Assembly: GCA_017400455.1 (NCBI GenBank)
Contig: JAFPTC010000089.1
Span: 1 to 60,223 of the forward strand
Direction of reading: 5' to 3'
Length of the DNA stretch: 60,223 nucleotides
Origin: Prevotella sp.
GTDB lineage: Bacteria > Bacteroidota > Bacteroidia > Bacteroidales > Bacteroidaceae
Made by a program: the position numbers and the translations under genes
Shown here: positions 2,554-54,722 of the stretch, piece by piece
Layout: every line of letters starts with the position of its first letter
Position numbering within the stretch: position 1 is the first letter of the stretch
The notes under the pieces: model-generated
Database searches by the model: none
What the model was told of the DNA's origin: nothing
The model's input: the letters and a program-made list of their open reading frames with translations, nothing else

Positions 2554-2567
2554 ATACAAAAGTCTCT

Positions 2568-2610
2568 TCTCCCCTACCCCTCTCTCTCCATGGGAGGGGG
2601 CAAGGGGAGA
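2568..2610. repeat. GC-rich palindrome (family A) between two envelope genes
   Basis: A pyrimidine-rich arm of CCCC/CTCT blocks (2568-2589) faces a GGGAGGGGGCAAGGGG arm (2591-2610). It would fold into a hairpin in either strand. Related copies lie at about 2706-2742, 46897-46934 and, weaker, 54874-54907. Here it sits 15 bases after the stop codon of the upstream gene and could attenuate read-through or protect RNA 3' ends. Confidence 0.6.
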
Positions 2611-2641
2611 CCTGAATCTGAAATAAACTCAAATGGAACTC

Positions 2642-4426: not shown

Positions 4427-4436
4427 AAAATGATAT

Positions 4437-7400: not shown

Positions 7401-10400
7401 GACAACTGCACCTTCAAGGGCGGCATCGGGGTACCCTTGCTCGGAAAGGTAGCACAGGAAAAGGCCGGTGACAACTCTTCGAAGAAAGGCGACGGCAAGG
7501 GCGGCAGCGGCTCTAAGGACGGCGGCAAGAGTGGTAGCAACGGTAAGACCGGCGGCAAGGACGGCGGTAAGGACGGCGGCAAGGGTGCTGGCGATAAGAC
7601 TGATGAGGAGAGCCGCCAGGAAAGCGACATAGACTACTTCTGCCAGATTCGAAACATGACCGACCCCGAACTGACGGAGAAGTACTACACCTATGAGCAG
7701 AAGTATGATGGGGCGGGCAACCCCATTGAGGGCCAGTTCAACAAGATTGAGCACGAGCGCAAGAAATACTATAATGACAAGGCTCGCTACGGCTATGTCT
7801 TCACCACCGAGAATGCTAGCAACGCCAAGCTGGGGCTTAACTTCTTCATTGCCGACATGACGCTGCTGCCAGGACAGACCTACTTCCTGGTAGAGGCCAT
7901 CGACACTGAGAAAGATGGCGAGGAAGACGTCTACACACAGGTAGAGCTCTGTCTGGCCGGCGACATCACAATAGCCGGTATCGACAACACAAGGGGCGTG
8001 AAGAGCGACACCGAGAAGAGCAGTTTCGCCAAACGCGTGGAGGAAATCAACAACAGCCTGCCCCTGCCGCTGGTGCTGCCCGGCATCCACTTTGCCAAGA
8101 TGCGCCTGTCGAACAGGGCGCTGGATGACTGGAAGAACTTAGGCGTAGACCAAAAGAATCACCACGACGTAGGCTTAGCCAGCCAGGATGCCTGGTTGGT
8201 GAAGAACAAGGTCCTCTACACCTTCACCGAAGGTAAAGAGATAGAATTGGGCAAGGAATGCTATTTCAACTACGGCGAATGGTCGCTGGCTTCGGCCGAA
8301 AAGAAGCTGGGCCCCTTCACCTTCACTCTGAAGGAATTCAAACCCGACATGAAGGGTGACACCATCAGCCTCGACGTGGAAGGGCAGATAGGCCTCATGG
8401 ACGGGAAGTTTGCCGTGGGAGCCGGCATCAGGCTCTCGGCCCAGGCCCACACCCAAGGCTCCATCTCCGACTGGTACGTCGACGATGGCAAGGTGAATTT
8501 CAAGAGCTTCGAACTGAATGTAGACTGGGAGGTGTTCAAGTTCAAGGGCCGCCTTGAACTCGAAGACTCCAGCACTGACAAAGGCTATGGTGGCAACATC
8601 AACCTGGAGATTAAAGACCTCTTCAAACTCGACGTCGCCGGCGGCTACTACAACCACAAGGGCATCAGCGAGGAGGAGAAGACCAAGAAAATTGCCGATG
8701 CCAAGTTGCGGGCCAAGAACGAGGACGGCAGCGAAGCGAAATACAAGAAATACTATAATCCCGACGAGGACTTCTACTCATGGGGCTACTTCCTAGCCAC
8801 CGTTGGTGGGCAGGGCCTCCGCATTGACCCCATCGTCATCAACCGCATCACGGGTGGCTTCTACTACAACTGCCGCCCAGCCCCCGGCAAGAAGGACAAG
8901 GACGGCCACTACGAGCTGGGCGAGGCGAAGCCCACGGCTGCCTACGGCACCATCGGTGTGGTCTTCGGACTGGGCATCACCACCTCCGGCGGCGAAGAGA
9001 CCATCAAGGGCGACTTGGACATGGTGGTCATCTACGACAAGAAGAACTCGCGCATGAGCCATCTTGAGCTCAACGGCGAGCTGGAGGCCGTGGGCGGCAT
9101 CATCCACTCCAAAGCCAGCCTCATCTACGAGAATAACGATGCCGACCGCTACCTCTGCATGAACCTCACGGTGCACGCTGGACTGGACAGCGACGAGCTG
9201 GCCAACAACCTGACAGCATTCAGCAACGAGCTAAAGGCGATACAGGAGGAGCTGAACGAATTCCAAAGCCAGGTCGACGACTTTGTCATGAAGAAGCCAA
9301 GGGTCGACGAGATGAAGGCCAACATGGACAAGATGCAAAGTGAATACGAGAAGACGACATCAGAAGAAGACAAGGAGAAGTCCGAAAAAGAGGTCAGCGA
9401 CGGTGCCAAGAAGGCCAAAACAACCTATGGCACCACCGACATCTATGTGGAGTTCAAGGTAACCTACCGGGAAAAAGGCACTGACAAGTCACCAACCAAG
9501 TGGCACCTCTATCTCGGCGAGCCGCAGAAAGACAAGCGCTGCAAGTTCACCACCATCGATTACAAGGACGATTTAGACATCCTCTCGGTGAAAATTGAGT
9601 CCGACGCCTACCTCTGCATCGGCAACGAGCTGCCCGGCAACGGCCAGCTGCCCGCCATCCCGTCGGAGATTACCGAGTTCCTCAACGGACACAAGAATTC
9701 TGCAGTCTCCACTGGCGGCGACATGGAGAAGGTGAACAACGCCCGTTCGCAGGTCGTCAAGAAAATGCTGCAGAACGCTGGAACCAAGGGCGGCATCATG
9801 GTGGGAGCCTCCTCCGGCGGCTTCATCAACGTCGACCTCGGAATCTTCTATGGCTACATGAAGGCCCTGGGTGGCTTCGACGTCTCATTGGTGAAGTACG
9901 ACTCTCCGCAGTATTGCTCCAACTACGGTGACTACATGGGTTACAAAGGCTGGTATGCCATGGGGCAGCTCTACGCCTACCTCGCCGCGAAGCTCGGCCT
10001 CCACATCAAGTTGGGCAGCCTCATTGACGAGAAGGTCGACCTGGTGGATGCCGGCATCGGCGGACTGCTCTCCCTAGGTCTGCCCAAGCCCACCTGGATT
10101 GAGGGCCAGGCACGCGTGAAGGTGAACCTCCTGGGGGGACTGGTGAAGGTGGACAAGGGCTTCAACTTCTCCGCCGGCAGCAAGTGCGTGCCCTTCAAGG
10201 GGAATGCTCTCGATGATTTCTCGCTCTTTGGCGATGTCACCGTAGCCAGCGACAGCATCCTGGAGGGATGGGACGAGGCCAATGCCATCAGCCTGAAGGA
10301 TGCCAAGAACATCCAGTTCAGCACCTACGCCAACCTCGGCGAGCGCTACCGACTCTACGACCCCACCACGGGCGGCGACCTCAGCAAGGAAACTGGCTAC

Positions 10401-13400
10401 AGCGAAGAGCAGATGAGCCTCTATGCTTCGCGCACCTACATCTTCGACATCAACAAGGACCGTGTATTGACAGAGAACAGTGGTGCGACAACAAACATCG
10501 ACCTCGGAGCTAAGCTCTACGAGATACCGACAGACGCCACCATCATTGTCGACAATTACATGTATAAACTGGTATCTGAAGGAATATTAACTGGCACCAC
10601 CTCTTACAAAGCGAAACCGTTTGATGACAAATTTCTGAGGAATTTCTACAAGAAGGCTGACGGTTCAGGACTTTCGTGGAACAATGCCATCATGAGCAGA
10701 TGGATGGAAGAGAAAGACCTGACCAGCAGAGAGAAGGCATTCCCCGAGGAGTTCAAGAAGTCCGAGGATTTCAAGAAGTTAGACCAGGCATTGTTGAACG
10801 TAATCAGGTGGGAGGGATACGACCTTAAAAGGGAAAAAGAAAGTAGCTCTTGGATTGAACATGAGGATGGCGTGGGAGAGATAATCAAGCCCTACCTGGT
10901 TCCTGGCGGTGCCAAGATTAATGAAAGCACCGGGCGCAATTTCCACTTGACCCTGTCAGGCCTCAAGCCCGGTAAGCTCTACATCCTGGAACTCAACGGC
11001 CAAGCCTTTGAGGTGCTCAACGGCAAACGTGTGTGGACGAATATGACCGTGACAACCCACAAGAAGTCAGGAGAAGAAGAAAAGCACGATGAATACGTGC
11101 GCTGGGAGCAGAAGCGCCTGGTGTTCTTCCGCACGAAGACCGAAGAGGAGGAGCAGGAGGCCATCCCCGAGAACCTGACTGACATCCAGCCCTATGTGGC
11201 CCTGGCCTACCCCTCCGCGCCCGGCAACAAGCTCTTCCAGGATAAGGAGGACGGCGCGACGTACAAGGCCAACATCGTGGACATCCAGCGGCCTACCATC
11301 GCCCTGAACACCGACATCAGTTCGTCGTTCTCGAAAGGCAAGCTGGAATGGATTCTGCAGGGATACTCCACTGGCATGAAAGGCACGAAAGCCATCGCCA
11401 CACAAAAGATTGAGAATGAATTCGTGAGAAAGAACGGTGGCGTCAACATGCAGCCCAAGGAAGCCTTCGACCTCTCGAAGATACAGGAATCTAACACCGA
11501 GGACAACGACTACCAGATTCTCCTGAAGTACACCTATCCAGTCTACAAGAGGACGGCGAAAGTGGTGAAAGGCTACGAGGGTGCCGATGGTGCATTCGGC
11601 ATCGCCATGGTATACGCCTACACAAAGGGGATGGAAGCCACCTGGGATGCCCTCTTCACCTGGGCACGTCAATACGACGGCTGGGAGGTAATCGACGTCG
11701 ACAAAGAAGCCCTCATCGGTGAAATCGACAACGCAAAGAGTGAGCAGGAAAAAGGTGATGTAACTTATTATATGCTTGGTTTAATTACTGGGGAAAACAC
11801 CTCTGACTGCACCATTTCCGACGATTTCACACAGTACATGGCCAGCAAGTTGGGCTTGTCCATGGTGGATAAGGACATCTATGAAGACGCAACAGTCAAT
11901 CTGGCCAACATGTGGTTCCGCTGCAACGAAGAGCCTTCCTGGCACCTGGGCCGAAGGCCGCTGACGAGCTACGAGAAGCAGTTCGTGGGCATCCGCCCGG
12001 AAAATCTGCCCACCTTTGCCTTCAGTCTGAGCAGCGACGACAACAACTACACCAAGCTCGAGACGAAGCAAGACGGCCTGTTGATGAGGCTTGCCGACCC
12101 CTACCTCTACTTCGCCTACCTGTCGAAGTATGTGTTCATCAACGACGTGGCCCTCGACAATTACGACTTCGACGACGTCAACGTGCCGCATGCCAGCGAG
12201 TCGCTCACCTTCAGCTTCAACGGCCACGGCATCTCCGGCTCGCTCATCCCTGGCGATAACTACCGCAACAAGAAGCTCTACACGCTGCGCAACGAGATGT
12301 ACAGCACGTGGAAGAACGCCTGGTACTATACCAACTACGGTTATTACTCCGACCTGAAATGGCCGCTGCCGCTCTATGCCGACGAAGACCTGGGACTGAC
12401 GGCCAACAACCAGACGTTCATCTCGCAGCCCTACAACAAGTTCAACATTAAGTCCGACAGCTACTACGTGGGCAATACCCCCTTCAGCCAGTCCGACTTC
12501 AGCACGAAGGGCTATGCCGCAAAGTACCTGGCACAGCAGTTCACTGCCCCCTACTACATTGCCCAAGCACTGAGCGACCAAATGAAGAAGATAGCCACGC
12601 AGGTCTACAACATCACGAAGAGTTCGACAAGCGACAGCGAAGTGAACAAGGCGATGATTGACTGGCAGAACCTGCACCGTGGACAGTATCTGAGGGTGTC
12701 GAGCATGGGCTTCGAGGTGCAGGTGCCCTACTACCAGTTCCCGCTCATCTTGGGCGACTGCTTCGACGATGACGACCGCGCCTTCAAGAAGTCTATAGTG
12801 AGCAAAGTCAACGATATTATCACTACCGACCGCAACGACCGAAGGACTTCCAACCTGTACTTTTTCCGTCTGATGGGCGGCACGCCACTGGCGAAGTACG
12901 ACCCGAGGACCTACCCCGGCATCTACAACAGCAGTGGCAACGTGAACCAAGACTGGTTCAGCGCTGCATCGGCGCTCAAGATGGTGACGAAGTTCGACTA
13001 TCGTGCCTATCGCACCAACACCTACAACCTGTCGACGAACCGCTATGAGTACTCCGAAGGCATCGGCAACAACGGTCGGTACGGCAGCACCTACCCCAAC
13101 ACCAACTTCACGGGAACGCTCGTCAACACCAAAGACAGCAAGAATCCGGGCACCTACGCCAGCATGGACAAAGCGATGTCAACCATAGGCACGCCTGCGG
13201 TCTACATCAATGGTCTTATCCCCGTGCCCTTCGTAGACACGTCCACCCTTGAAGGCTTGATGATGGGAGGAGAAGCCATGAACCAGATGTTCATAACAAG
13301 CATCATTGCTCCCTGGATGCAGGACCACGAGCCCGACCTCTATGCCATCTACAAGGAGAGCAGCAACACCAAGAAAATCGGGATGCTGCAGGCATGGGCC

Positions 13401-13625
13401 GCTGCCAACGACCCGACGCTGACGGACTGGGCATCGAAGCAAAACAAAGGCCTCTGGTGGGTGCTGATATGGAAAAACGACCCAGCACTCATCAAAACCT
13501 GGAAAATGTCGAACTCGGTAAACAAGGCACTGGGCAAGCCCGCCACCTTCCCCGAGACAGAACCCACCTTCCAGCTACTGTTCTTCAAAGACATCATCTC
13601 ACATAAATATGGAATAATATGGTAA
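4437..13625 (+). CDS. Giant exported protein (3,062 residues), possibly a TANFOR-type protein
   Basis: A long N-terminal signal ends at 'SPVKAQD'; the start could be 4437, 4443 or 4479, since an ATG pair at 4479 gives a more ordinary signal peptide. Residues ~40-230 ('DNLGRYFRVTVINNT', 'EGQYELQLTAYEWN') resemble the N-terminal region of large Bacteroidales proteins annotated as TANFOR-domain proteins; this is from memory. A Gly/Lys/Asp/Ser-rich low-complexity linker spans ~1016-1062 and a charged coiled coil ~1586-1661. The remainder is mostly beta-rich with many Tyr/Asp/Lys, and no enzyme motif was seen. The stop codon overlaps the next gene by 7 bases, so translation of the two is coupled. 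It is probably exported and assembled on the cell surface or in the outer membrane with its neighbours. Confidence 0.7.
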   Translation: MAMNKMTNIKNLCLMMKNSRWMMVITLSLLIIHLSFSPVKAQDVTLQVTPVQSVLPPQAGKYIDNLGRYFRVTVINNTSVSQSLYFGVQIQQKFPSDVLWMSTNVETMHIPQQPIVLAPNQHKTLNSIELKHLFDHFGSHDIFIREGRYKNILDSEFGLLDEGQYELQLTAYEWNTQLTSPVVLTSPLDGVATFNICYEAEPPMFTFPIRPVVTDGLSDLAITKIDKKQAQIRFEWTQPTLNCNATMVNFRYRIRFVELGSMMPDEAMEENTPTFLEKHELLTNSYTIPTSYVTQMIADTAAHGKVYAMQVTAYTPYQNSNSLNVALVKNEGKSDIFLFQLYDPEKEDKVIASLGDNEISKDERGEPYIYEQPILTHPVFSDMLGRFIYSGDSIKAEWRHPAIAGGWGEKQDTVKFKYNLALYIGNAADNVKTIFKTSKPVFTKDVGEKEEYTIKWVDLQDKVSQGDYLLLRVTAKCTNNPDSIVKFKSDSLNYTDFALTRHFDETYQCGRNTATVGNKELINEKPKAGTRYKIGQWNLELIDDASRPLEFDKDKKTLKGFGRIEWSVMKPKAYIAVKFDSLKVNTDGVVFDGVCKTYSKSSQKVEGTEYTEEQVIDSLFSSASLDNIFGALSVPENVRNAVTGYAKDEATNLAKSYNLGKYYTQYKKAENTWENWQKGDLGDLYFPFEAPDEIKKYLPKDFSLQIGNITFSPSNAVMNLIGAITLPNSDIFEDQNVLVFGAPRLCISPDRFFPEDGVLALLSNFVINDPSSDFKLVFKAPSEPLNPTLRDGCFIRWENDEFDALGMEIAMTIPNTTRVVDGKPQKDVPALLDLWTTIEAGGSACDFIAEGTMTSFQVNDLPDWTFTAGKKIVFDHHLDRNGKNMPDLKTVEGWTNNVYDLKKVTNYNSWEAWQGVFIDEVSVQFPKWAVIGNGEQGITVGGQNMIFDASGATAKFFAKDVLDAETGRCGGWKFSIEEANVQIVQNNFDNCTFKGGIGVPLLGKVAQEKAGDNSSKKGDGKGGSGSKDGGKSGSNGKTGGKDGGKDGGKGAGDKTDEESRQESDIDYFCQIRNMTDPELTEKYYTYEQKYDGAGNPIEGQFNKIEHERKKYYNDKARYGYVFTTENASNAKLGLNFFIADMTLLPGQTYFLVEAIDTEKDGEEDVYTQVELCLAGDITIAGIDNTRGVKSDTEKSSFAKRVEEINNSLPLPLVLPGIHFAKMRLSNRALDDWKNLGVDQKNHHDVGLASQDAWLVKNKVLYTFTEGKEIELGKECYFNYGEWSLASAEKKLGPFTFTLKEFKPDMKGDTISLDVEGQIGLMDGKFAVGAGIRLSAQAHTQGSISDWYVDDGKVNFKSFELNVDWEVFKFKGRLELEDSSTDKGYGGNINLEIKDLFKLDVAGGYYNHKGISEEEKTKKIADAKLRAKNEDGSEAKYKKYYNPDEDFYSWGYFLATVGGQGLRIDPIVINRITGGFYYNCRPAPGKKDKDGHYELGEAKPTAAYGTIGVVFGLGITTSGGEETIKGDLDMVVIYDKKNSRMSHLELNGELEAVGGIIHSKASLIYENNDADRYLCMNLTVHAGLDSDELANNLTAFSNELKAIQEELNEFQSQVDDFVMKKPRVDEMKANMDKMQSEYEKTTSEEDKEKSEKEVSDGAKKAKTTYGTTDIYVEFKVTYREKGTDKSPTKWHLYLGEPQKDKRCKFTTIDYKDDLDILSVKIESDAYLCIGNELPGNGQLPAIPSEITEFLNGHKNSAVSTGGDMEKVNNARSQVVKKMLQNAGTKGGIMVGASSGGFINVDLGIFYGYMKALGGFDVSLVKYDSPQYCSNYGDYMGYKGWYAMGQLYAYLAAKLGLHIKLGSLIDEKVDLVDAGIGGLLSLGLPKPTWIEGQARVKVNLLGGLVKVDKGFNFSAGSKCVPFKGNALDDFSLFGDVTVASDSILEGWDEANAISLKDAKNIQFSTYANLGERYRLYDPTTGGDLSKETGYSEEQMSLYASRTYIFDINKDRVLTENSGATTNIDLGAKLYEIPTDATIIVDNYMYKLVSEGILTGTTSYKAKPFDDKFLRNFYKKADGSGLSWNNAIMSRWMEEKDLTSREKAFPEEFKKSEDFKKLDQALLNVIRWEGYDLKREKESSSWIEHEDGVGEIIKPYLVPGGAKINESTGRNFHLTLSGLKPGKLYILELNGQAFEVLNGKRVWTNMTVTTHKKSGEEEKHDEYVRWEQKRLVFFRTKTEEEEQEAIPENLTDIQPYVALAYPSAPGNKLFQDKEDGATYKANIVDIQRPTIALNTDISSSFSKGKLEWILQGYSTGMKGTKAIATQKIENEFVRKNGGVNMQPKEAFDLSKIQESNTEDNDYQILLKYTYPVYKRTAKVVKGYEGADGAFGIAMVYAYTKGMEATWDALFTWARQYDGWEVIDVDKEALIGEIDNAKSEQEKGDVTYYMLGLITGENTSDCTISDDFTQYMASKLGLSMVDKDIYEDATVNLANMWFRCNEEPSWHLGRRPLTSYEKQFVGIRPENLPTFAFSLSSDDNNYTKLETKQDGLLMRLADPYLYFAYLSKYVFINDVALDNYDFDDVNVPHASESLTFSFNGHGISGSLIPGDNYRNKKLYTLRNEMYSTWKNAWYYTNYGYYSDLKWPLPLYADEDLGLTANNQTFISQPYNKFNIKSDSYYVGNTPFSQSDFSTKGYAAKYLAQQFTAPYYIAQALSDQMKKIATQVYNITKSSTSDSEVNKAMIDWQNLHRGQYLRVSSMGFEVQVPYYQFPLILGDCFDDDDRAFKKSIVSKVNDIITTDRNDRRTSNLYFFRLMGGTPLAKYDPRTYPGIYNSSGNVNQDWFSAASALKMVTKFDYRAYRTNTYNLSTNRYEYSEGIGNNGRYGSTYPNTNFTGTLVNTKDSKNPGTYASMDKAMSTIGTPAVYINGLIPVPFVDTSTLEGLMMGGEAMNQMFITSIIAPWMQDHEPDLYAIYKESSNTKKIGMLQAWAAANDPTLTDWASKQNKGLWWVLIWKNDPALIKTWKMSNSVNKALGKPATFPETEPTFQLLFFKDIISHKYGIIW

Positions 13626-15895
13626 GCAATAAGAATATCCTCCTTGGGGCCATGCTGCTCATGAGCACTGCCACGGCCATGGCCCAGTCTCCCTCCGACA
13701 GCATCGCCGCCGGCCAGCCCCCAATGAGTGGCGACACCATCATCTATCAGGAGCCGACGCTCATCACCACGAAGATTCATGCCCAAGCCCGCACCTATGG
13801 TGACAGCATAGCCCTGCGCTGGGTGCCCGAGGACTACGTGTCGTGGAAATACCTCTGCCAGACGGGTGTCAACGTCCTTCGCACAGAGACCAACGCCGAG
13901 AACTTCGCCATCGACACGCTGGCCTACGCGCTGAAGCCCCTCAGCGAAGAGGGCTTCCGGGCAAAGTATGCACTCAATGACAGCAATGCCCTCGTGGCCC
14001 TGGGCGTGCTCTACGGTGAGGGGCGCATGGGATTGAACCAGACGCAGAACATGCCTGGCACGCTTGGCGCCAGCATGGAGCACAACAACGAGCAGGACCT
14101 GTCGTTTGCATTCGCCATGCTCGTGGCCGACTGGCGCCCCGACCTGGCACGCGACATGGCAGTGGGCTTCCTCGACCGCACGGCACAGCCCGGCAAGACC
14201 TACGACTACTACATCCAGCCCACCCGCTGGGAGACCGACGGCCGCCTCATCTTCGAGCCCGGCGTGGTGGAGCGCGTGAGGAATAATGAATACTGGCCTG
14301 GCATTTTTGACCCGCAGATGGTCGATTCGCTCTCCAGCCCACGCCGCCACGTGCTGGGCTGGTGGGACCACGAGTACTCCACCTACGAGCTCTACCGCCG
14401 CCAGGTGAGCGACGGCGACGGCAACGCCACCGACGGCGAGTGGGTGCACATCAACCCGAAGCCCTACCTCTCGGTCATCGAGCTGCCGCAGGGCGAGGAC
14501 TACAAGGCCTACTCCGACTCCGTGCCCAGCTTCGGTGTCTACGAGTATGTCGTGGCCGGCCACGATGCTTTCGGTGACGTCATCCCGTCGGCCCACCAGC
14601 TGAGGGTGAACGTCTACGACAACGAGCCGCCCACAGCTCCGCAGCTGAAGACCATCGTTGTGGACTATCCCGACAATGACATAAGGGGTCGCACGCGAGC
14701 CCGCATCATCTGGGAGAAGGACACGCTGGAGCGCGACCTGCAGGGCTACATTGTGAGATACTACAACGCAAAGATTAGCGGCGAGACGTGGATGGAGCTG
14801 AACGACCAGATTATTCCACCGGCGGACACCATGTTCGTGGCCGACGTCACCGGCCTGCGCACGGGCATGCTGCAAGTGGCGGCATACGACCGTTCGGGCA
14901 ACGAGGCAGTCTCGTTCTCGCAGCTCATCGAGCTACACGACTTCAAGGCCCCTGCAGCCCCCGACTCGCTGAGTGCACAGGTAATAGTGCCACAGCTGAC
15001 GCCTCTGGCCAGGGAGGACATGAAACGGGCCTACGTCATCCTGCGCTGGAAGCCCGACCCCACCGACGATGACATCATGCACTACGACATAGCCTTCGCC
15101 AACGATACCACGCACACATTCCAGCGCTTGAACGAGCTGGCCATCAATGAGACATGGTTCATTGACTCGCTGGCCCTCGACGTCAACCAGAAGTACATTT
15201 ACTATAAGGTGCGCGCCACCGACTACTCGACGAACGAGGGCGAGTGGAGCCCCTGGATTCAGGTGAAGCGTCCGCATATCACACCGCCCACACAGCCCCA
15301 TCTGGAGCGCTCGACAAGCAAAGACGAGGAGGGCATCCACATGGAGTGGATTGTCGGTACGGATGCCGACATGGACTATCACAACGCCTACCGCCGACTG
15401 GGCGAGGACGGCGACTGGGAGCTGATAGGCCGCTACGACCACGACTCGCTGACCGCCCATAACTACACCATCGTCATCGACGACCGTCCCACGTACAACC
15501 GCCAGCAACGCTACTACTACTATGTTGAGTCGTTCAACTCGTCGCCCTTCACCTCGAAGAGCCTCGCCGTGAGCTTCCTCTTCCAGGGCCCGAAGATATG
15601 GGACGTCAGCCTGAAGCTCATCGGCGACTACGACGAGAAGACGAAGCAGACGCGGCTGGTGTGGGACACGGGCAAGCTGCCCTTCGATGCCCCCTACTAC
15701 TACTGCATCTACCGGCGAGCCGCTGGCGAGGAGCGCTATGAATACATGGGCAACGTGCCGGCTGACACGCTGGAGTTCACCGACCAGCGCCTGAATCCGG
15801 GCGAGCAGGCTGAGTACTATGTGATGATACAGTGGCGCGACGGACGGCAGAGCACACTGTCGAACACCATCACCGTGAAGAGAAGTGAAAAGTGA
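13619..15895 (+). CDS. Exported fibronectin type III-like protein
   Basis: 758 residues with a clear signal peptide ending 'ATAMAQSPSD'. From about residue 330 onward, several ~100-residue segments show the fibronectin-III pattern: 'PPTAPQL' or 'PAAPDSL' openings, a Trp in strand B ('RIIWEKD', 'ILRWKPD', 'HMEWIVG'), and 'YYKVRATD' or 'YYYYVESF' near the end. No catalytic residues were recognised. The ATG lies within the end of the giant-protein gene (7-base overlap), so the two products are likely made together and may bind each other. The middle may hold a further Ig-like segment. Role in adhesion or scaffold assembly is inferred. Confidence 0.75.
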   Translation: MVSNKNILLGAMLLMSTATAMAQSPSDSIAAGQPPMSGDTIIYQEPTLITTKIHAQARTYGDSIALRWVPEDYVSWKYLCQTGVNVLRTETNAENFAIDTLAYALKPLSEEGFRAKYALNDSNALVALGVLYGEGRMGLNQTQNMPGTLGASMEHNNEQDLSFAFAMLVADWRPDLARDMAVGFLDRTAQPGKTYDYYIQPTRWETDGRLIFEPGVVERVRNNEYWPGIFDPQMVDSLSSPRRHVLGWWDHEYSTYELYRRQVSDGDGNATDGEWVHINPKPYLSVIELPQGEDYKAYSDSVPSFGVYEYVVAGHDAFGDVIPSAHQLRVNVYDNEPPTAPQLKTIVVDYPDNDIRGRTRARIIWEKDTLERDLQGYIVRYYNAKISGETWMELNDQIIPPADTMFVADVTGLRTGMLQVAAYDRSGNEAVSFSQLIELHDFKAPAAPDSLSAQVIVPQLTPLAREDMKRAYVILRWKPDPTDDDIMHYDIAFANDTTHTFQRLNELAINETWFIDSLALDVNQKYIYYKVRATDYSTNEGEWSPWIQVKRPHITPPTQPHLERSTSKDEEGIHMEWIVGTDADMDYHNAYRRLGEDGDWELIGRYDHDSLTAHNYTIVIDDRPTYNRQQRYYYYVESFNSSPFTSKSLAVSFLFQGPKIWDVSLKLIGDYDEKTKQTRLVWDTGKLPFDAPYYYCIYRRAAGEERYEYMGNVPADTLEFTDQRLNPGEQAEYYVMIQWRDGRQSTLSNTITVKRSEK

Positions 15896-44836: not shown

Positions 44837-44889
44837 CAAAATAATTATGAATTATGAATTGTGATTTATGAATTATTTCGTACCTTTGC
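44835..44889. repeat. Right copy of 55-bp inverted promoter module
   Basis: Reverse complement of 41863-41917 with a single mismatch. Its right end is the TACCTTTG box (44881-44888) for the GMP synthase gene, its left end the CE7 box. The two copies enclose 41918-44834, that is the phosphoesterase, barrel-like and CE7 genes. Confidence 0.9.
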
Positions 44890-44938
44890 ACTCATTATTA
44901 ATTATTTACGCCATTTTTTCTTAAAAAACTACATTCCT

Positions 44939-45922
44939 ATGGTAACATCCAACGTTCGTCCGGCCACAATGGAGCGTATCACTACGCCCGCCCTGGCCCA
45001 GCAGTTCATCGACCAGCAAACAGACTTGCTCCGTGCCCAGATTGGTGACAAGAAGGTGCTTCTCGCCCTCTCCGGGGGAGTCGACTCCTCCGTGGTGGCC
45101 GCCCTTCTCATCAAGGCCGTAGGCCAGCAGCTCGTTTCCGTCCACGTCAACCACGGCCTCCTGCGCCAGGGAGAGCCCGAGGAGGTAGTGCGCGTCTTCC
45201 GCGACCAGCTGAAGGCCAACCTCGTCTATGTCGATGCCACCGACCGCTTCCTCGACAAGCTCGCCGGCGTGGCCGACCCCGAGCAGAAGCGCAAGATCAT
45301 CGGTGCCGAGTTCATCCGCGTGTTTGAGGAGGAGGCCCGCAAGCAGGAGGGCATCAGCTTCCTTGCCCAAGGCACCATCTATCCCGACATCGTGGAGTCA
45401 GGCCCTGTGAAGTCCCATCACAACGTTGGCGGCCTGCCCGCCGACCTCCAGTTCGAGCTCGTCGAGCCCATCAAGCTGCTCTACAAGGACGAGGTGCGCG
45501 TGGTAGGCAAGCAGCTGGGCCTGCCCGACGGCATGGTGTTCCGCCAGCCCTTCCCCGGCCCCGGACTGGGTGTGCGCTGCACCGGCGCCATCACCCGCGA
45601 CCGCTTGGAGGCCCTGCGCCAGAGCGATGCCATCCTGCGCGAGGAGTTTGCCAAGAACGGCCTCGAAGGCAAGGTGTGGCAGTATTTCACCATCGTGCCC
45701 GACTATAAGTCCACCGGCGTACGCGATGACAAGCGCTCCTGGGACTGGCCCGTCATCATTCGTGCCGTGAACACCCGCGACGCCATGACCGCCACCATCG
45801 AGGAGATTCCCTACCCGCTGCTCCACCACATCACCCAGCGCATCATCAACGAGGTGCCGGGCGTCAACCGCGTGCTCTACGACCTCACCCCGAAACCCAC
45901 CGGCACCATCGAGTGGGAGTGA
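44939..45922 (+). CDS. GMP synthase ATP-pyrophosphatase domain protein (no glutaminase domain)
   Basis: 327 residues from the ATG at 44939; an upstream in-frame GTG at 44861 lies within the promoter repeat and is rejected. The PP-loop 'SGGVDSS' is at 45-51, followed by 'VNHGLLRQGE', 'GTIYPDIVESG', 'SHHNVGGLP', 'FRQPFPGPGLGVRC' and the C-terminal dimerisation segment ending 'TPKPTGTIEWE', all GuaA. The enzyme aminates XMP to GMP. The N-terminal glutamine amidotransferase domain of ordinary GuaA (~190 residues) is absent and is not encoded next door, so it either uses ammonia, pairs with a separate glutaminase as in archaea, or is a second copy. Confidence 0.88.
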   Translation: MVTSNVRPATMERITTPALAQQFIDQQTDLLRAQIGDKKVLLALSGGVDSSVVAALLIKAVGQQLVSVHVNHGLLRQGEPEEVVRVFRDQLKANLVYVDATDRFLDKLAGVADPEQKRKIIGAEFIRVFEEEARKQEGISFLAQGTIYPDIVESGPVKSHHNVGGLPADLQFELVEPIKLLYKDEVRVVGKQLGLPDGMVFRQPFPGPGLGVRCTGAITRDRLEALRQSDAILREEFAKNGLEGKVWQYFTIVPDYKSTGVRDDKRSWDWPVIIRAVNTRDAMTATIEEIPYPLLHHITQRIINEVPGVNRVLYDLTPKPTGTIEWE

Positions 45923-45940: not shown

Positions 45941-46080
45941 CATCCCAACATAGCCTCGGTTTTACACGGTTCAACACAGTTTTTGCATATAGAAACGATA
46001 GCATCAAAGATGCTGCAGCATTCGTGGAAATACCGTATTGAACCGTGTAAAACCATGGTTATGTAGTTAAGTTCAATTAG
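45941..46080. repeat. ACGGTTTTACACGG palindromic unit, copy 1 (family D)
   Basis: Begins CATCCCAACATAGCC, then CGGTTTTACACGGTT; the right half has TTGAACCGTGTAAAACC. The flanks (TAGCC... and AAGTTCAAT.AG) are also shared with copy 2, so the repeat unit is longer than the palindrome itself. Confidence 0.8.
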
Positions 46081-46089
46081 TTGTCCAAA

Positions 46090-46194: not shown

Positions 46195-46346
46195 CATCCT
46201 GACGTAGCCTCGGTTTTACACGGTTTTTACACAGTGCTATAAAAACCGTGTAAAACCGTTGTAATGCCTTGGTATTACCATGAACATTCGTGGAAATACC
46301 GTGTTGAACCGTGTAAAACCGTGGCTATGCGAGAAAGTTCAATGAG
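46195..46346. repeat. ACGGTTTTACACGG palindromic unit, copy 2 (family D)
   Basis: Same start (CATCC..ACGTAGCCTCGG) and end (AACCGTGGCTATG...AAGTTCAATGAG) as copy 1 with a longer middle holding an extra inverted pair. With copy 1 and the GTTGTCCTC hairpin it fills the 453-base gap after the GMP synthase gene; no coding region was found there. Confidence 0.8.
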
Positions 46347-46380
46347 TGATGAGTGAACGGTGCGTAAGCCACTCATCACT
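46345..46380. terminator. Hairpin overlapping the antitoxin gene end
   Basis: AGTGATGAGTG (46345-46355) and CACTCATCACT (46370-46380) are perfect complements with a 14-base loop. The antitoxin stop codon lies inside the right arm. No long T-run follows, so termination is uncertain. Confidence 0.45.
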
Positions 46381-46934: not shown

Positions 46935-47113
46935 TCTGTATCTTTATTTCCTGCGCTTACAGTCCCGCCAAATTATCTCATGGGCGCAGCAAAATGACGA
47001 GAAAGATATCTATTATTAGTTCCATCCATAAACCAAAAGAGAAGCCTCCTATCTTCACAGACAAGAGGCTCCGAATCAAACAAATTTCCAAGTTAGTAAC
47101 AAACTCAGAAAAC

Positions 47114-47200: not shown

Positions 47201-48328
47201 TTATAACTCTTTCAGCTCATAGCTGCCATCATTGTATCTTTTCACTTCCAGCAGGCCGTGATAACATGTAGTCACCATTTTTTGCAGATCGCTGATGCGT
47301 AAAGCGCCAAAAGGCTTGTCTACCCACTGATTGCTTAGGAACATGGTTTCACCGTTCACTACAAATGGAGTATCAAACCATCGGGTAGATGTGCTGCGGC
47401 CATTCCTGTATTCCAGTTCTTCCTGTGTACATCTAATAAACATGCCAATGAGTTTGAAATCCCCTTCTTTCTCTACAGCAGTCAGTTGGTTGCGAACAAA
47501 ATAATGGCTTACCGATTCCAACTTATCTAAACTATACAATTGCTTTACCACCTCAAGTGCAAAAGAATTGGCTACGCGGCTTTTTATCAAACTGCCCTTT
47601 GATGGGGGCATGTTCTCTTGTACGCAGACTGCTGTTTCTTCTTCTACCATTTTCTCCTCGTCATCCCACTTAAACTTGATGCCTAATTGTGGTAGAAAAG
47701 CCCCCAACGACTCTAAGTCTTTCTTTTTCTGCTCATGACTCAGTTGGGTCATAATGAAAAAACCGTCCTCAAAGTCTTGCGGTGAAGCACCATCGCTTTC
47801 TCTTATAGTTTCTTCGCGTTCAACTACACAAACTTCCTTGTTTCCCACAGTATGCCAAGCCTCATGCCGGTTTCTATTGTCGTAAATGAGCTGTAAGCCT
47901 ATTTTCTTCAGGGCATCCTTCCACGTATCCACTCCCTTTAATCGGTGTATCATGGTGCCGTCGGCAAACGACACGCTGAAGCCCACTGACTTTCGTTTCT
48001 GCTTTCGTTCTCTTTTCTCTTCACTGTCGTTCTCCGTATCCACATTCTGATCATCCTCTTCCTGTTGCGCTGTATCTTCATTGTCCAGTTTCAGCCGATG
48101 ATAATCTATTTGCAGTTCCTTACCGGGTTGGTATTTAATAATAATATCCATTGGGCATTGCAACTTCTTCATTGTTTCTTCAATGCCTTGCCTGATAGCA
48201 GGAAACACTTTGTTGCAGACATACTCTTCTTCTGCCTCTTCAAGTGCTTTCTGTAGCTCTTCACCAAATGTTCTTCCCGTTGTGGTGAAATAGGCCTTTG
48301 TGCCGTAAAGTGAATCAAGATTATCCAT
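47201..48328 (-). CDS. Unknown protein of a defence-like operon
   Basis: 375 residues; I recognise no family. The middle (~82-115) is a highly charged, low-complexity linker ('EEDDQNVDTENDSEEKRERKQKRK') joining two apparently folded parts. The N-terminal part begins with 'LYGTKAYFTTTGRTFGEELQKALEEAEEE' (helical). The second part contains 'SFADGTMIHRLKGVDTWKDALKKIGLQLIYD', which resembles the segment preceding the catalytic part of some restriction-associated proteins only loosely. No membrane segment or signal peptide. It is the last gene of a four-gene operon, 33 bases after the helicase gene, and is AT-rich like its neighbours. A nuclease, effector or specificity role is possible but unproven. 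Confidence 0.6.
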   Translation of the reverse strand: MDNLDSLYGTKAYFTTTGRTFGEELQKALEEAEEEYVCNKVFPAIRQGIEETMKKLQCPMDIIIKYQPGKELQIDYHRLKLDNEDTAQQEEDDQNVDTENDSEEKRERKQKRKSVGFSVSFADGTMIHRLKGVDTWKDALKKIGLQLIYDNRNRHEAWHTVGNKEVCVVEREETIRESDGASPQDFEDGFFIMTQLSHEQKKKDLESLGAFLPQLGIKFKWDDEEKMVEEETAVCVQENMPPSKGSLIKSRVANSFALEVVKQLYSLDKLESVSHYFVRNQLTAVEKEGDFKLIGMFIRCTQEELEYRNGRSTSTRWFDTPFVVNGETMFLSNQWVDKPFGALRISDLQKMVTTCYHGLLEVKRYNDGSYELKEL

Positions 48329-48361
48329 TGTCCTTTTGTTTAAATGGTTCGTATTTGGTGG

Positions 48362-50050
48362 TTATTCTGTTTCCCAGAAGTCTTCGAAACGGTGATAGGA
48401 TTGTTGGTCGCCAAACCTAACAAGATTGTCCGTGAAGTCAATAATAAGACAGGATTCCGTTCCTCCAAACTCTGGCCCTCTCAGTCCTCTTCCGACGATC
48501 TGCTCATATAGAATATCACTGAAAATGGGACGACAGATAACAATATAGTTTGTCTTGGGAGCATCAAAGCCCGTAGTCAAGACACTATGATTCACCAGGA
48601 ATTCTATCTCGCCATTACGGAATCGTTCAATGTACAATAGTCGCTTCATACGCGACGTCGCTGCCGTGATAGCAACAGCCTTTCGCCCGTGAACTGTCAG
48701 TGCAGCCGCCAACAGTTCGGCATGCTCTACGTTGCAGGCATAGACTATCACCTGCCCGTCCTTGATGGCCAACAATCGCTGAAGTATCTTCTGGTTCCGC
48801 TCAATGTTCTGTGCCAGTTCTTTGCATCCTCTTCCTACCTCAAACTCCAGTTCTTCGAGTGACGGGTCAGGCTTTCCTGACGGAAACTCTATTGTATAGG
48901 TTGTACCAGTAGAGATAATTTCATGTATCGGCCGAGCCAAGTAGCGCTTGTCGCGGAAATAATTGACAGGCTTTGCCTGATACTTTGCAGGGAGTAATGG
49001 TGTGACAAGTCTATAGACAAAGAAACGTGTGAGCTGGGTGATGTCATCTGTCCTACCTGGCGTGGCTGTCAAGCCACAGACAGGAAACATCTTTTCTCCT
49101 CTGATTCGTTGGCTATATGCGTAGAAAGTGTTGTACATCATCGTTACGGCCCGGTGAGCTTCGTCAATAATGCATGCCCCGCAATTCTCTATCAACAAAC
49201 GAACCTCGTAGTTACCTCCTTTGATAGCATTGTAGAGCTTGTTGATGCTACAAACCACCACGCCACCACACATATCCTGTTCATGGAGCTGATGGTTGGA
49301 GTACAATCTGTATATACGCAGACTTTCAGTAAACTCCTTATGTTGCCAAATCTGCTGAAAGGTTGCCACAGCCTGTTCGCCCAGTTCTTCGCTTTGAGCT
49401 ATCCATATCAGATATTTGCCCTCAAAGAATCGTGGCCGAAGGTATTCCGTATAGGCCTCAACGGCTATCCTCGTCTTGCCGGCACCTGTTGGCAGACTGA
49501 TGAGACACTTTGCTTCATCCCCCCTTTCGGCCAGTGCTGCCTTCAACTCGTCCTTCAAGTGCAGTTGGTATTCTTTCAGCTGCGGCAAGCGTTTGTAGGG
49601 TTCAACATCCTCAAAGTCTTCATAGCTTACAGCATTGTTCTTCTTACCGCAAAATAACAGGTCTATCCCCGAAATCTCCATGAACGCCCTTGGCCATGAG
49701 GCCCCTCTGTGCCAGTTCATCTCAGCCAACCTGCCAGACTTTTGGCTGTTGCTCTTGGGTTCTGAGTTACAACGCCGTCTAAACTCGTCGTCTCTCACAT
49801 CTTCTGTCCAGCAGTCTATAATGCGTTTCCTCAGTTCCTTGGTACTTTTCTTGCTGCCCGCAAAGAAGTCAGAACCCTCTATACGTAACATTAGTTCCAG
49901 TTTGTCGTAAACAGACAGTCTGCGTTGTACCACGTTCAGCAGGTTGTCAATGTTGCGTTCCTCGGCAAGCATGTTGACGAACCTCGAAGACAACCCATAC
50001 TGGTCAATCAGCAGTCGTGCAGTATCCTTATATATATCTTTATCGGCCAT
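48362..50050 (-). CDS. SF2 DEAD/DEAH-box helicase/translocase of a defence-like operon
   Basis: 562 residues. A non-helicase N-terminal domain (~1-150) precedes the motor: Walker A 'PTGAGKT' at 187-193, DEAH at 296-299 in 'CIIDEAHRAV', 'GLTATPGRTD' at 326-335, and motif VI 'QIVGRGLRGPEFGG' from 517. The arrangement resembles the HsdR/UvrB-like helicase branch used by restriction and other defence systems. No nuclease motif was seen in it. The start lies 3 bases after the stop of the DUF262-HNH gene, so they are one transcript. It would use ATP to move along or open DNA. Confidence 0.88.
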   Translation of the reverse strand: MADKDIYKDTARLLIDQYGLSSRFVNMLAEERNIDNLLNVVQRRLSVYDKLELMLRIEGSDFFAGSKKSTKELRKRIIDCWTEDVRDDEFRRRCNSEPKSNSQKSGRLAEMNWHRGASWPRAFMEISGIDLLFCGKKNNAVSYEDFEDVEPYKRLPQLKEYQLHLKDELKAALAERGDEAKCLISLPTGAGKTRIAVEAYTEYLRPRFFEGKYLIWIAQSEELGEQAVATFQQIWQHKEFTESLRIYRLYSNHQLHEQDMCGGVVVCSINKLYNAIKGGNYEVRLLIENCGACIIDEAHRAVTMMYNTFYAYSQRIRGEKMFPVCGLTATPGRTDDITQLTRFFVYRLVTPLLPAKYQAKPVNYFRDKRYLARPIHEIISTGTTYTIEFPSGKPDPSLEELEFEVGRGCKELAQNIERNQKILQRLLAIKDGQVIVYACNVEHAELLAAALTVHGRKAVAITAATSRMKRLLYIERFRNGEIEFLVNHSVLTTGFDAPKTNYIVICRPIFSDILYEQIVGRGLRGPEFGGTESCLIIDFTDNLVRFGDQQSYHRFEDFWETE

Positions 50051-50053
50051 ACC

Positions 50054-51220
50054 TTATCTATTTCCTTTTGATCTGTTATGTGTCTTGCACAACATTTGGC
50101 AGTTATCAATACTTGTGGCGCCGTGATTACTCCATGCCGTCACGTGGTCGGCATCCATCTCGTTCAACTTCCAAATCTTTGTGCGGTTGGCCTCGTGTCC
50201 TAAGGCACATAGCGGGCAATTGCTTTCACCCTTAGCTGATGCAGCCTGAGTCTGCCGCCGGTAGACTATACGTTTGGTTGCCTCGTCAAAAACGCGAATA
50301 TCAAGCAGGCGCCTGTCTTGTTGACCGCCAAGGACGTACTCGAAGATGCCTTTGCGGTTTTTCACGTAAGGGTCGTCCATCAGTCGCTCAACAGCCTCGG
50401 TATGCTCCTGTTTCCTTGGCGGCTGAGAATGATATTTATCGTAGAGTCGGCCCCACGGTAGCCCACACATTTCTTTATATGTCTTTCCAAACTCGCTTTC
50501 TATCCAGCCGATGACGTCATTGAAGTGGTCACGCAACTCATCGATAGTGTAATCGTCGCGATGAGCCTCCATGTAGTCCTTCACGTGGCCATGGCTCACC
50601 CAGTCGAGAGCAGTAGCAAGGAAGTCCTGTCGCTTTACGTTGCCGCTGATGTAGGTGCTCCACTTCTGTACCTCAGAATTGCGGCTATTGCTAAACACCG
50701 TTTTGGCCAACGTAACAAACGTACCGCTATAGATGGCATTGAGTCTTTCCTGCTCACGCAACTCAATGCCGGCTATATTGATGATGTCAAACCATTTGCG
50801 AATCTCCATCTCACTGCCCTCACAGATGTACACCAGCAGTTCGGTGTCTTCTATCCTTCGTCGGAGCTTCTCGTCTTTGATGCGTGAGAACTTGTAAGGC
50901 ATACCGTCGATCTCATAGCTGAACTTGTCGGTGCAGAAACGGCCCAATGACGTAATGCGTTGTTGCCCGTCAAGCACCTCCAGCTGTCCGTCTTTACGCT
51001 TGTTGAAGTACATCACCCCCAACGGATAGCCCTTCACTACGGAGTCGATAACGGCCAGTTCCTTTTTACCGTCATCTTCGGCATAGAGGTAATTACGTTG
51101 GTACTCCGGCTGTATTGTCAAACGGCCTGCCAGACCATACAGGCCTTTCTCCTCCAGGCTATTATATACAAAGCCCTCGCAGAGCTGCTTCACAGTGTAA
51201 ATCTTGCGTTCGGTTTCCAT
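50054..51220 (-). CDS. DUF262 (GmrS-like) protein with C-terminal HNH nuclease
   Basis: 388 residues. The N-terminal DUF262/ParB-like domain shows 'IQPEYQRNYLY' and 'VLDGQQRITSLGRF' (DGQQR at 84-88), the nucleotide-hydrolysing motif of GmrSD-type proteins. The C-terminal ~55 residues form a zinc-finger HNH nuclease: CPLC at 335-338, 'DADHVTAWSNHG' (Asp358, His359, His366), 'DNCQMLCKTHN' (Cys378, His381, Asn382). All key residues are present. Proteins of this kind act as modification-sensitive or foreign-DNA nucleases. The start is 4 bases after the methyltransferase stop codon, and the helicase follows directly. Confidence 0.88.
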   Translation of the reverse strand: METERKIYTVKQLCEGFVYNSLEEKGLYGLAGRLTIQPEYQRNYLYAEDDGKKELAVIDSVVKGYPLGVMYFNKRKDGQLEVLDGQQRITSLGRFCTDKFSYEIDGMPYKFSRIKDEKLRRRIEDTELLVYICEGSEMEIRKWFDIINIAGIELREQERLNAIYSGTFVTLAKTVFSNSRNSEVQKWSTYISGNVKRQDFLATALDWVSHGHVKDYMEAHRDDYTIDELRDHFNDVIGWIESEFGKTYKEMCGLPWGRLYDKYHSQPPRKQEHTEAVERLMDDPYVKNRKGIFEYVLGGQQDRRLLDIRVFDEATKRIVYRRQTQAASAKGESNCPLCALGHEANRTKIWKLNEMDADHVTAWSNHGATSIDNCQMLCKTHNRSKGNR

Positions 51221-51224
51221 TTCG

Positions 51225-52364
51225 TTATTGTTTTTTGCGGATGAGTATCCTTTGATATACTTTTTCCCTTTTGTTGTCTACTATGATGACACCACTTGCA
51301 TTTAAATCGTATGTTCCTTTCTTATTGAACTTGTCAAAATAAGCTTGCTTACATTCTGCCGTAGAATAAACTTTCGTTTTCAGTCCATACAAATCTTCAT
51401 TCTCACACATCCCCAATATCTCAAATTGTTCTGGGCAATACTTATCAAGAAAAGATATGGGAACGCCCATAGTTCCCTCGTAGTCGGAAGGAATAGCGTC
51501 AGTATAAGGAACTTCTATGGCATCGTAGTTTTCATAGTGTCCATACGACTCTCTACCTCTAATCTCCTTATGCCGACTGTATTTCAAGTTGTCCCCCATC
51601 GTCATCAGTTGTAGAGGCTCGTGGCGGCGTCCGTGGTCAATATTAGTAATCCAGATGGAAGGTACGTTTTTCATGTTAACACCATTGATGACTTTATCCA
51701 CGTCATCTTCATTCATGGTTTTAAACCACATGCCACCAGCCCATTCCTTTCGACCTGACCACACTTTGTTGTCCTTTATATAAGGAAACATTTCTTTATA
51801 GGTAACACAGTTTTTGTTGCCAATCATTACAAATTGCTTGTCGCTATCCATTATCCAAGCAAAGAATTCTTTGAACAGCGAAAATGGCGGGTTGGTGACA
51901 ATGATGTCTGCTTCGTCACGCAGTTTCGTAACCTCCTCACTTCTAAAGTCACCATCCCCTTCAAGATAATCCCATTCTAAATCTGAGTGGTCTATGTGTC
52001 CGTCGCCAGTCTTGTCGTGAGTAAGCACAAAGATCTTTCCATTCGTCTGTGCCTTGACTGCGTCATACTGTGGAGCACCTGTTTCGAAGAGAGTCAATTG
52101 TATGGGATATTTATATTTCTTGCTCTCGGGCGCATAGCTGGTGGAGATGAGTTTCTTCAGTCCCAATGATTCGAAGTTCTGTGCAAAATAAAGAGTGAAG
52201 TTGCTCCATTCAGGATCGTCGCAGGGAAGCAGCACTGTCTTGCCACGGAACACATCAGGGTCGTACTCAAGGTACGCCTCCATCTCGCGCTCAATGTCGT
52301 AATACTGAGTGTAGAATTCGTCGTTCTTAGCCTCTTTGGCCTTTGCCAATGTCTCGTTTGCCAT
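51225..52364 (-). CDS. EcoRI-family adenine-specific DNA methyltransferase
   Basis: 379 residues, close to the length of EcoRI methylase. 'KNDEFYTQYYDIEREMEAYL' at 13-32 and 'VLLPCDDPEWSNFTLYF' at 44-60 form the S-adenosylmethionine site, and 'NPPF' at 158-161 is the catalytic motif of N6-adenine methyltransferases. It probably protects host DNA. No EcoRI-like endonuclease follows; the next genes encode DUF262-HNH and a helicase instead. It leads the operon, preceded by a ~330-base region holding a large inverted repeat and, at 52696-52703, the nearest good promoter box. Confidence 0.9.
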   Translation of the reverse strand: MANETLAKAKEAKNDEFYTQYYDIEREMEAYLEYDPDVFRGKTVLLPCDDPEWSNFTLYFAQNFESLGLKKLISTSYAPESKKYKYPIQLTLFETGAPQYDAVKAQTNGKIFVLTHDKTGDGHIDHSDLEWDYLEGDGDFRSEEVTKLRDEADIIVTNPPFSLFKEFFAWIMDSDKQFVMIGNKNCVTYKEMFPYIKDNKVWSGRKEWAGGMWFKTMNEDDVDKVINGVNMKNVPSIWITNIDHGRRHEPLQLMTMGDNLKYSRHKEIRGRESYGHYENYDAIEVPYTDAIPSDYEGTMGVPISFLDKYCPEQFEILGMCENEDLYGLKTKVYSTAECKQAYFDKFNKKGTYDLNASGVIIVDNKREKVYQRILIRKKQ

Positions 52365-52830: not shown

Positions 52831-52967
52831 TGATGCAAGGAGTAAGAGAACGCGGCTTACGAAAAAGGATAAGCCTTGCGAAAGGGGAAAAGGAGCCTGC
52901 AAACAGGGGATAAGATGCTGGGAAGCAGGGAGAAAGGGGCGTTCTGGCTCGTTGTGGCCGCCCGCCC
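52831..52967. repeat. 137-bp direct repeat, copy 1 (family G)
   Basis: Matches 54586-54722 with 5 mismatches. Starts TGATGCAAGGA and ends GGCCGCCCGCCC. It truncates the outer-membrane protein gene on its right. Confidence 0.92.
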
Positions 52968-54585: not shown

Positions 54586-54722
54586 TGATGCAAGGAATAA
54601 GAGAACGTGGCTTACGAAAAAGGATAAGCCTTGCGAAAGGGGAAAAGGAGCCTGCAAACAGGGGATAAGATGCTGGGAAACAGGGAGAAAGGGGCGTTCG
54701 GGCTCGTTGCGGCCGCCCGCCC
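54586..54722. repeat. 137-bp direct repeat, copy 2 (family G)
   Basis: About 96% identical to copy 1 at 52831-52967, same orientation. Together they bracket a 1.6-kb segment with the outer-membrane protein fragment and the GNAT pair. The gap 54246-54910 holds only this repeat, two hairpins and a weak GC-rich repeat at 54874-54907. Confidence 0.92.

Follow-up and report, generated by a model that had tools for sequence, protein, structure and literature searches.

Four tightly spaced genes on one strand of a Prevotella contig raise the question of whether they form a single defence system or a familiar restriction-modification (R-M) pair with later additions. They lie at 52364-47201 on the minus strand of a 60,223-nucleotide stretch of contig JAFPTC010000089.1 (assembly GCA_017400455.1), the whole of which we call the window, and encode in this order an EcoRI-family adenine-specific DNA methyltransferase (MT), a DUF262 protein with a C-terminal HNH domain (RE), an SF2 helicase/translocase (HEL) and a two-part protein (U4). 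A preliminary description of the locus had proposed a new four-gene defence system; its account of four AT-rich, same-strand genes separated by gaps of 4, 3 and 33 bases (MT/RE, RE/HEL and HEL/U4, respectively) was confirmed for coordinates, strand, spacing and base composition, and all four reading frames are intact. The explanation that we favour, with moderate confidence, is that MT and RE are a self-sufficient type II R-M system to which an acquired accessory helicase and a putative recognition protein have been added, probably on one transcript.

The case begins with the first two genes. MT (51225..52364; 379 amino acids) matches the Pfam EcoRI_methylase family PF13651 (1.5e-115) and the PADLOC model MTase_II (PDLC03297, 9.5e-81), with its NPPF motif at 51882-51893 (residue 158). 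RE (50054..51220; 388 amino acids) matches the Pfam families GmrSD_N (DUF262, PF03235; 4.8e-17) and HNH (PF01844; 2.2e-6) and, over residues 18-387 of 388, the PADLOC type II endonuclease model REase_II (PDLC03418, 2e-77). Its DGQQR motif is found at 50957-50971 (residue 84) and its HNH part is intact, with CPLC, DADHV, DNCQMLC and THN at residues 335-382 (within 50075-50218). An alignment of RE with relatives drawn from 17 of the 30 loci described below (18 sequences in all) shows the DGQQR motif and the HNH part's C, H and N residues to be invariant; RE is the probable cognate endonuclease of MT. Pfam matches and motif positions likewise bear out the earlier reading of the methylase, of the DUF262-HNH protein and of the helicase motifs. 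Both genes expected of a type II R-M system of this kind are present, an NPPF methylase of the EcoRI family and, adjacent on the same strand, a full-length DUF262-HNH protein that is predicted to cut at sites lacking the cognate methylation.

That the two belong together is indicated by their distribution. A scan of GTDB contigs, with RE as the sole query, yielded 30 loci whose record titles name Bacillota, Bacteroidota, Chloroflexota and others, with best-segment identities to RE of 48-67%. An MT relative is present in 23 of them; in five of the other seven the RE match begins 112 bases or fewer from a contig end, and the loci with room for a methylase but without one are L024 and L028, the latter holding a fragment of RE only. 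The methylase is found in 19 of the 21 loci that have at least 1.2 kilobases (kb) upstream. The reciprocal view is similar: an EcoRI-type methylase occurs in 32 of 101 genomes of the same family (the window's own genome counted), which gave 40 listed places (again with its own, and with two genes in two pieces), and RE is present in 19 of the 20 that we examined, the methylase of the twentieth (L137) sitting at a contig end. At L141 (5467-7590) the order of the two genes is reversed. Among plasmids, 90 records match RE, and MT and RE are side by side in all three that were examined; one such pair (L074) is carried by an Enterococcus faecium plasmid close to annotated drug-resistance genes. Because the pairing recurs in 23/30 and 19/20 loci and on three plasmids, the simple endonuclease that the preliminary description believed MT to be missing is most likely RE, and together the two make up a two-gene R-M system of a known kind, EcoRI-methylase plus DUF262-HNH. 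The earlier suggestion that the methylase marks self and the HNH protein is the nuclease gains support from this co-occurrence and from the MTase_II and REase_II matches.

Neither HEL nor U4 shares this distribution. No relative of either was detected in the 50 stretches around the 30 RE and 20 MT loci (tblastn, and profiles at E 0.01), and the HEL and U4 profiles found no match at E 0.01 in the three RE plasmid stretches; as a positive control, both profiles do match the window's own genes. The sequence available behind RE in the two sets reached at least 1.7 kb in 27/30 and 18/19 loci; 20 and 17 of these, respectively, offered 2.9 kb or longer. Nor was a HEL relative seen near a U4 relative (0/23 stretches) or a U4 relative near a HEL relative (0/18). 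The proposal of a new four-gene system, and with it the expectation that the four genes would recur together in other genomes, found no instance in the searched sample. Since HEL and U4 are each rare, joint recurrence is still conceivable, and a rare functional HEL-U4 pair may be compatible with absence from a few hundred sampled genomes. At one RE locus (L011) a second DUF262 gene is followed by a different helicase, which lies ~2.3 kb downstream of RE.

HEL (48362..50050; 562 amino acids) is by sequence an SF2 helicase with the full set of motor motifs. It matches Pfam ResIII (3.8e-17) and Helicase_C (3.4e-13) and retains GAGKT (Walker A, 49472-49486), DEAH (49154-49165), TATPGR, TTGFDAP and QIVGRGLRG (motif VI, 48476-48502), and the family alignment shows a diverged N-terminal region of ~150 amino acids. 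The repair helicase RadD is its best match by sequence among solved proteins (7.9e-19), and the NCBIfam RadD model matches at 1.1e-33, under that model's cut-off. Full-length relatives are rare: of 394 other genomes in the phylum sample, six have a match to HEL at E 1e-40, one of them near full length (L066, 42% identity). L066 and a protein of a Bacillus badius plasmid (L048, 41%) are its closest relatives (39.5 and 41.3% in the family alignment). Reading of open reading frames (ORFs) in these two stretches revealed no ATP-binding (GHKL) or phospholipase D-like (PLD) gene, the L066 contig being 7.2 kb long.

The wider family has a different setting, for the most part in operons of phosphorothioation type. 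Of 215 plasmid records that match HEL we examined 12 (L048 and 11 others), and in all 11 others the helicase stands in a cluster with a GHKL and a PLD gene, each stretch also carrying at least one gene for a PAPS-reductase, cysteine desulfurase, aminotransferase V, DUF4007 or DndB protein. GHKL and PLD are annotated as such in eight of the 11, and were judged by sequence or size in the other three; in the one record checked by Pfam, GHKL was confirmed and the PLD match fell under the cut-off. Five more HEL loci of the phylum resemble these clusters by ORF reading. A DUF262-like protein is encoded two genes upstream of the HEL relative in L070, and a DUF262 gene lies nearby in L058; the L070 row (1676-12237) runs, by ORF reading, through PAPS-reductase-like, DUF262-like, NERD-like, HEL-like, GHKL-like and PLD-like genes. 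A paper on phosphorothioation (PMC10853773) describes helicase-nuclease fusions of related systems, and a word search of passages of it returned neither GHKL nor PLD. Phage records match HEL in 1503 cases, none covering 80% of it, and pattern scans of viral contigs, which reach close relatives only, showed no relative of HEL or U4.

U4 (47201..48328; 375 amino acids) is the protein that the preliminary description could not place, and it has no match above cut-off in Pfam, NCBIfam, PADLOC or PHROGs; a search of defence profiles, which had been proposed as a check, assigned MT and RE to known type II models and left U4 without an assignment. Plasmids and phages gave no match to U4 at E 0.01. 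It can nonetheless be divided in two. The N-terminal part, U4N (residues 1-222; 47663..48328), delimited by family alignment, genome searches and gene contexts, aligns with a small family of proteins of ~210 amino acids. Members occur in 14 of the 100 other genomes searched in the same taxonomic family and in two of 394 further genomes from the phylum sample; with U4 alone as query, 5 of 294 other genomes of the order gave matches, some of them weak and one of them to the C-terminal half. That C-terminal part, U4C (residues 250-375; 47204..47581), was recognised by BLASTP and by the genome search with U4 alone.

For U4N, gene neighbourhoods are informative. A type IIG Eco57I-like methylase lies within 3 kb on the same strand as U4N in 6 of 19 loci and a SNF2-type helicase in 4 of 19; U4N gene, methylase and helicase occur together in L078, L115, L120 and L122. 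Control stretches around EcoRI-methylase (0/20), RE (0/30) and HEL (0/18) loci contain no type IIG methylase. The type IIG and SNF2 queries were derived from five of the six positive loci, earlier identified by Pfam/PADLOC, so the count is not independent of them; the contrast with the controls stands, and L116 and the control zeros do not depend on the choice of query. The 19 loci leave out L041, L152 and L153, which were found via U4C, and L043, a weak first hit whose U4N-like stretch belongs to an HSDR_N protein. In L040 only 4 bases separate an HNH gene from the U4N gene behind it. One of the 13 loci without type IIG methylase, L124, carries three tandem U4N paralogs near a DndD/PbeC-like ATPase, a HerA-like ATPase and a type III-like helicase (5245-13999).

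U4C has fewer relatives, with a match in 1 of 100 other family genomes and in 2 of 294 order genomes, one of them weak. Single BLASTP comparisons align it with proteins of L041 (31% identity, E 2e-11) and L152 (32%, E 1e-14), in both of which the U4C-like stretch sits N-terminal to an AAA domain; a third match, L153 (E 4.8e-5), was excluded as weak. The search with U4 alone gave a U4C-type match at E 6.0e-9. The A2 profile includes the L041 sequence and so returns G255 as its top hit by construction; U4 alone had found G255 earlier. The L041 locus encodes a C5 methylase, an HNH protein and a DUF2357-PDDEXK_7 protein, and that of L152 two C5 methylases, an AAA_5 protein and an RE_LlaJI match slightly above cut-off (3.7e-6). 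In LlaJI, R1 is the sole specificity subunit, and its N-terminal half is described as looking unique (PMC1459862). Because U4C resembles LlaJI/McrBC-like subunits, LlaJI R1 sets specificity and U4N is restriction-linked, we propose by analogy that U4 is a putative DNA-recognition or adaptor protein. Judged by their relatives, both halves appear to be linked to restriction and U4 is no orphan, which agrees with the earlier guess of a specificity or effector subunit in so far as it ties the protein to restriction.

Composition and transcription signals concern all four genes alike. Their GC content is 0.43-0.50, and at third codon positions 0.46-0.61, whereas three nearby genes, for HrpB, an alpha/beta hydrolase and a GMP synthase-like protein, have third-position values of 0.80-0.83; the four genes therefore look acquired, and probably are. 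A pattern scan located a terminator-like hairpin of 14 pairs 3' of U4 on the same strand (47041..47072), a possible end of the transcription unit, and no terminator-like hairpin of that strand in the three gaps between the genes. Since the region has 20 such sites against a mean of 7.4 in shuffled sequence, the single hairpin after U4 says little. No convincing promoter candidate was found 5' of MT.

The surroundings hold several further features. Upstream of the operon, a gene for a GNAT acetyltransferase is flanked by the two copies of a 137-base direct repeat (52831-52967 / 54586-54722, 96% identical), and a 63-base repeat (46019-46081 / 46285-46347, 86% identical) lies between the GMP synthase-like gene and a RelB antitoxin gene. 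The GMP synthase-like protein (44861-45922, plus strand) has 353 amino acids; 12 of 13 other same-genus matches are in open frames of 516-560 amino acids, and the thirteenth (G793), 90% identical and likewise short, comes from a genome that holds a long copy too. When this gene was used to look for an empty site, one close relative (90%) was obtained, and the examined part of its contig matches the window at that gene only. Farther away, four successive large ORFs of 832, 597, 3062 and 758 amino acids occupy 55-15895 on the plus strand and have no Pfam match at E 0.001.

The most reasonable explanation, in our view, is a working two-gene R-M system that has gained two genes. MT would protect self by methylating an adenine within a short target of the host's DNA, and RE would cut the same target when it is unmethylated, its DUF262 part probably serving nucleotide binding or recognition. 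HEL and U4 would have been added downstream, probably sharing the transcript. HEL, which belongs to the RadD/phosphorothioation-linked family, would be a DNA motor driven by ATP, and U4 the recognition or adaptor protein. Perhaps in contact with each other and in cooperation with RE, HEL and U4 would most likely form an ATP-dependent accessory on the same incoming DNA and not an essential part of the cutter, either remodelling that DNA or extending the attack past a single cut.

Several observations weigh against this explanation. The stretches around the two closest relatives of HEL, L066 and L048, contain no relative of MT, RE or U4, and no second locus with HEL or U4 beside MT and RE was found among the stretches examined. 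No type IIG methylase was found in thirteen of the 19 U4N loci, and the queries for that count came from five of the six positive ones. The AAA match of the L041 protein falls under the Pfam cut-off, and DNA recognition by U4C is proposed only by analogy. Finally, in L130 and L131 a gene that reads as antitoxin-like ends only 5 bases before RE. It is possible, though we think it the less probable course, that MT and RE are a stand-alone R-M system and that HEL and U4 are unrelated cargo of a defence/toxin-antitoxin island, brought close by chance. The 50 stretches empty of HEL and U4 are as this would predict, as are the two closest HEL relatives, which appear solo by ORF reading, and the RelB antitoxin and GNAT genes of the region. 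Tight intrusion is also on record in the same R-M family: besides L130 and L131, in L129 and L133 MT and RE are parted by BRO-like genes of 283 amino acids, and 46 bases after RE comes a recombinase-like gene (all named by reading). With unrelated genes nearly as tight, spacing is weak evidence for shared function. Chance cargo is, however, harder to reconcile with the relatives of the added genes, since both halves of U4 are restriction-linked and HEL's wider family is found in operons with DNA-modification genes; here two defence-linked genes follow directly behind an R-M pair, on one strand and with no terminator-like hairpin in the gaps.

Closer cooperation than the accessory role has also to be considered. 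One form, which we regard as unlikely, would join HEL, U4 and RE in one ATP-driven restriction complex, RE, whose relatives do without HEL and U4, having been recruited as the cutter; U4C would then be a free-standing target-recognition subunit, U4N a restriction adaptor and HEL the motor. Another, which we rate as rather doubtful, is an obligate four-protein, ATP-dependent system parallel to CglI/NgoAVII, in which U4 would locate the target, HEL translocate, RE cut and MT protect. The operon-like arrangement is what such a system would show, HEL relatives occur near DUF262 genes in L070 and L058, and U4C is similar to the N-terminal part of AAA subunits in LlaJI/McrBC-like loci, R1 being the sole specificity subunit of LlaJI (PMC1459862); an architecture of methylase, R-protein and helicase is moreover already known (PMC4267653). 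Against it, RE relatives lack HEL and U4 in all 50 stretches, so that this RE would need to have come to rely on both, and RE retains the conserved residues of those HEL- and U4-free relatives. Very improbable, and overlapping in its probability with the accessory, cargo and obligate readings, is that RE is a modification-dependent, type IV-like nuclease to which the MT mark is a signal or an unrelated protection: the DUF262 proteins GmrSD, BrxU and SspE do act on modified DNA (PMC4619093 and PMC10952713), but RE has a PF01844 HNH and not DUF1524, and the adenine methylase that accompanies it in 23/30 and 19/20 loci is the usual sign of an enzyme blocked by modification.

If HEL and U4 cooperate with RE, the locus would show a two-gene R-M system gaining a motor powered by ATP, which is one of the steps that set type I/III-like enzymes apart from type II. 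If the three form one complex, it would match CglI/NgoAVII with an HNH nuclease in place of theirs and would capture a type II system on its way to becoming motor-driven. If HEL and U4 are only cargo, the locus warns against equating operon spacing with shared function in defence islands. U4 itself ties a small family near type IIG methylases to the N-terminal part of LlaJI/McrBC-like restriction subunits, which gives testable partners to proteins that have no family in the four libraries.

How does the locus compare with known systems? Among the papers listed in searches of the literature on DUF262 and EcoRI-type systems, none concerned this four-gene set, most subscription journals being outside the coverage. 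The preliminary description knew of no named system with this set, and had set aside BREX and DISARM. The core of BREX is PglZ/BrxC and that of DISARM DrmA/DrmB; none of these core models is among the PADLOC matches (E <= 1) of the four operon proteins, to which the scan was confined, and HEL matches the DrmC model at 0.0027. That part of the statement holds. The part that CglI/NgoAVII weakens is the novelty of the combination, since methylase, nuclease and helicase have met before. The R- and N-proteins of CglI/NgoAVII belong to families other than RE and HEL, and the likeness is one of gene kind only. In CglI/NgoAVII, methylase, nuclease and a separate helicase-like ATPase make up one system in which cutting requires ATP hydrolysis (PMC4267653), whereas the nuclease relatives of RE occur without HEL. 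GmrSD and BrxU share the DUF262 part but were rejected as type IV matches on the nuclease part.

The helicase of the helicase-GHKL-PLD operons is homologous to HEL, with 29-36% identity over the core and an end-to-end alignment that is weak N-terminally, but it is flanked there by GHKL and PLD genes, whereas HEL has RE and U4 as neighbours and is nearer to its two solo relatives than to these phosphorothioation-type helicases. Membership of HEL in a phosphorothioation system was set aside for this locus, where HEL has no such neighbours. The genome itself, assembled to 71% completeness in 160 contigs, gave no match to a single GHKL and a single PAPS-reductase-like query, run with no positive control, and such a system may still lie elsewhere in it. 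LlaJI-type R-M systems, with an McrB-like R1 and a nuclease R2, share with the locus only the U4C stretch, which resembles the pre-AAA stretch in two LlaJI/McrBC-like loci; they need an McrB-like AAA protein, RE_LlaJI and C5 methylases, none of which is in the four-gene set, U4 itself having no AAA/GTPase domain. The loci of type IIG methylase and SNF2 helicase place a U4N gene near a helicase and a methylase, as here, but their methylase, helicase and nuclease families are different and their U4N proteins, of 209-230 amino acids, lack U4C by profile search. EcoRI-methylase plus DUF262-HNH pairs, while unlike the locus in being free of HEL and U4 relatives, share two of its families with it, and usually their order and strand as well.

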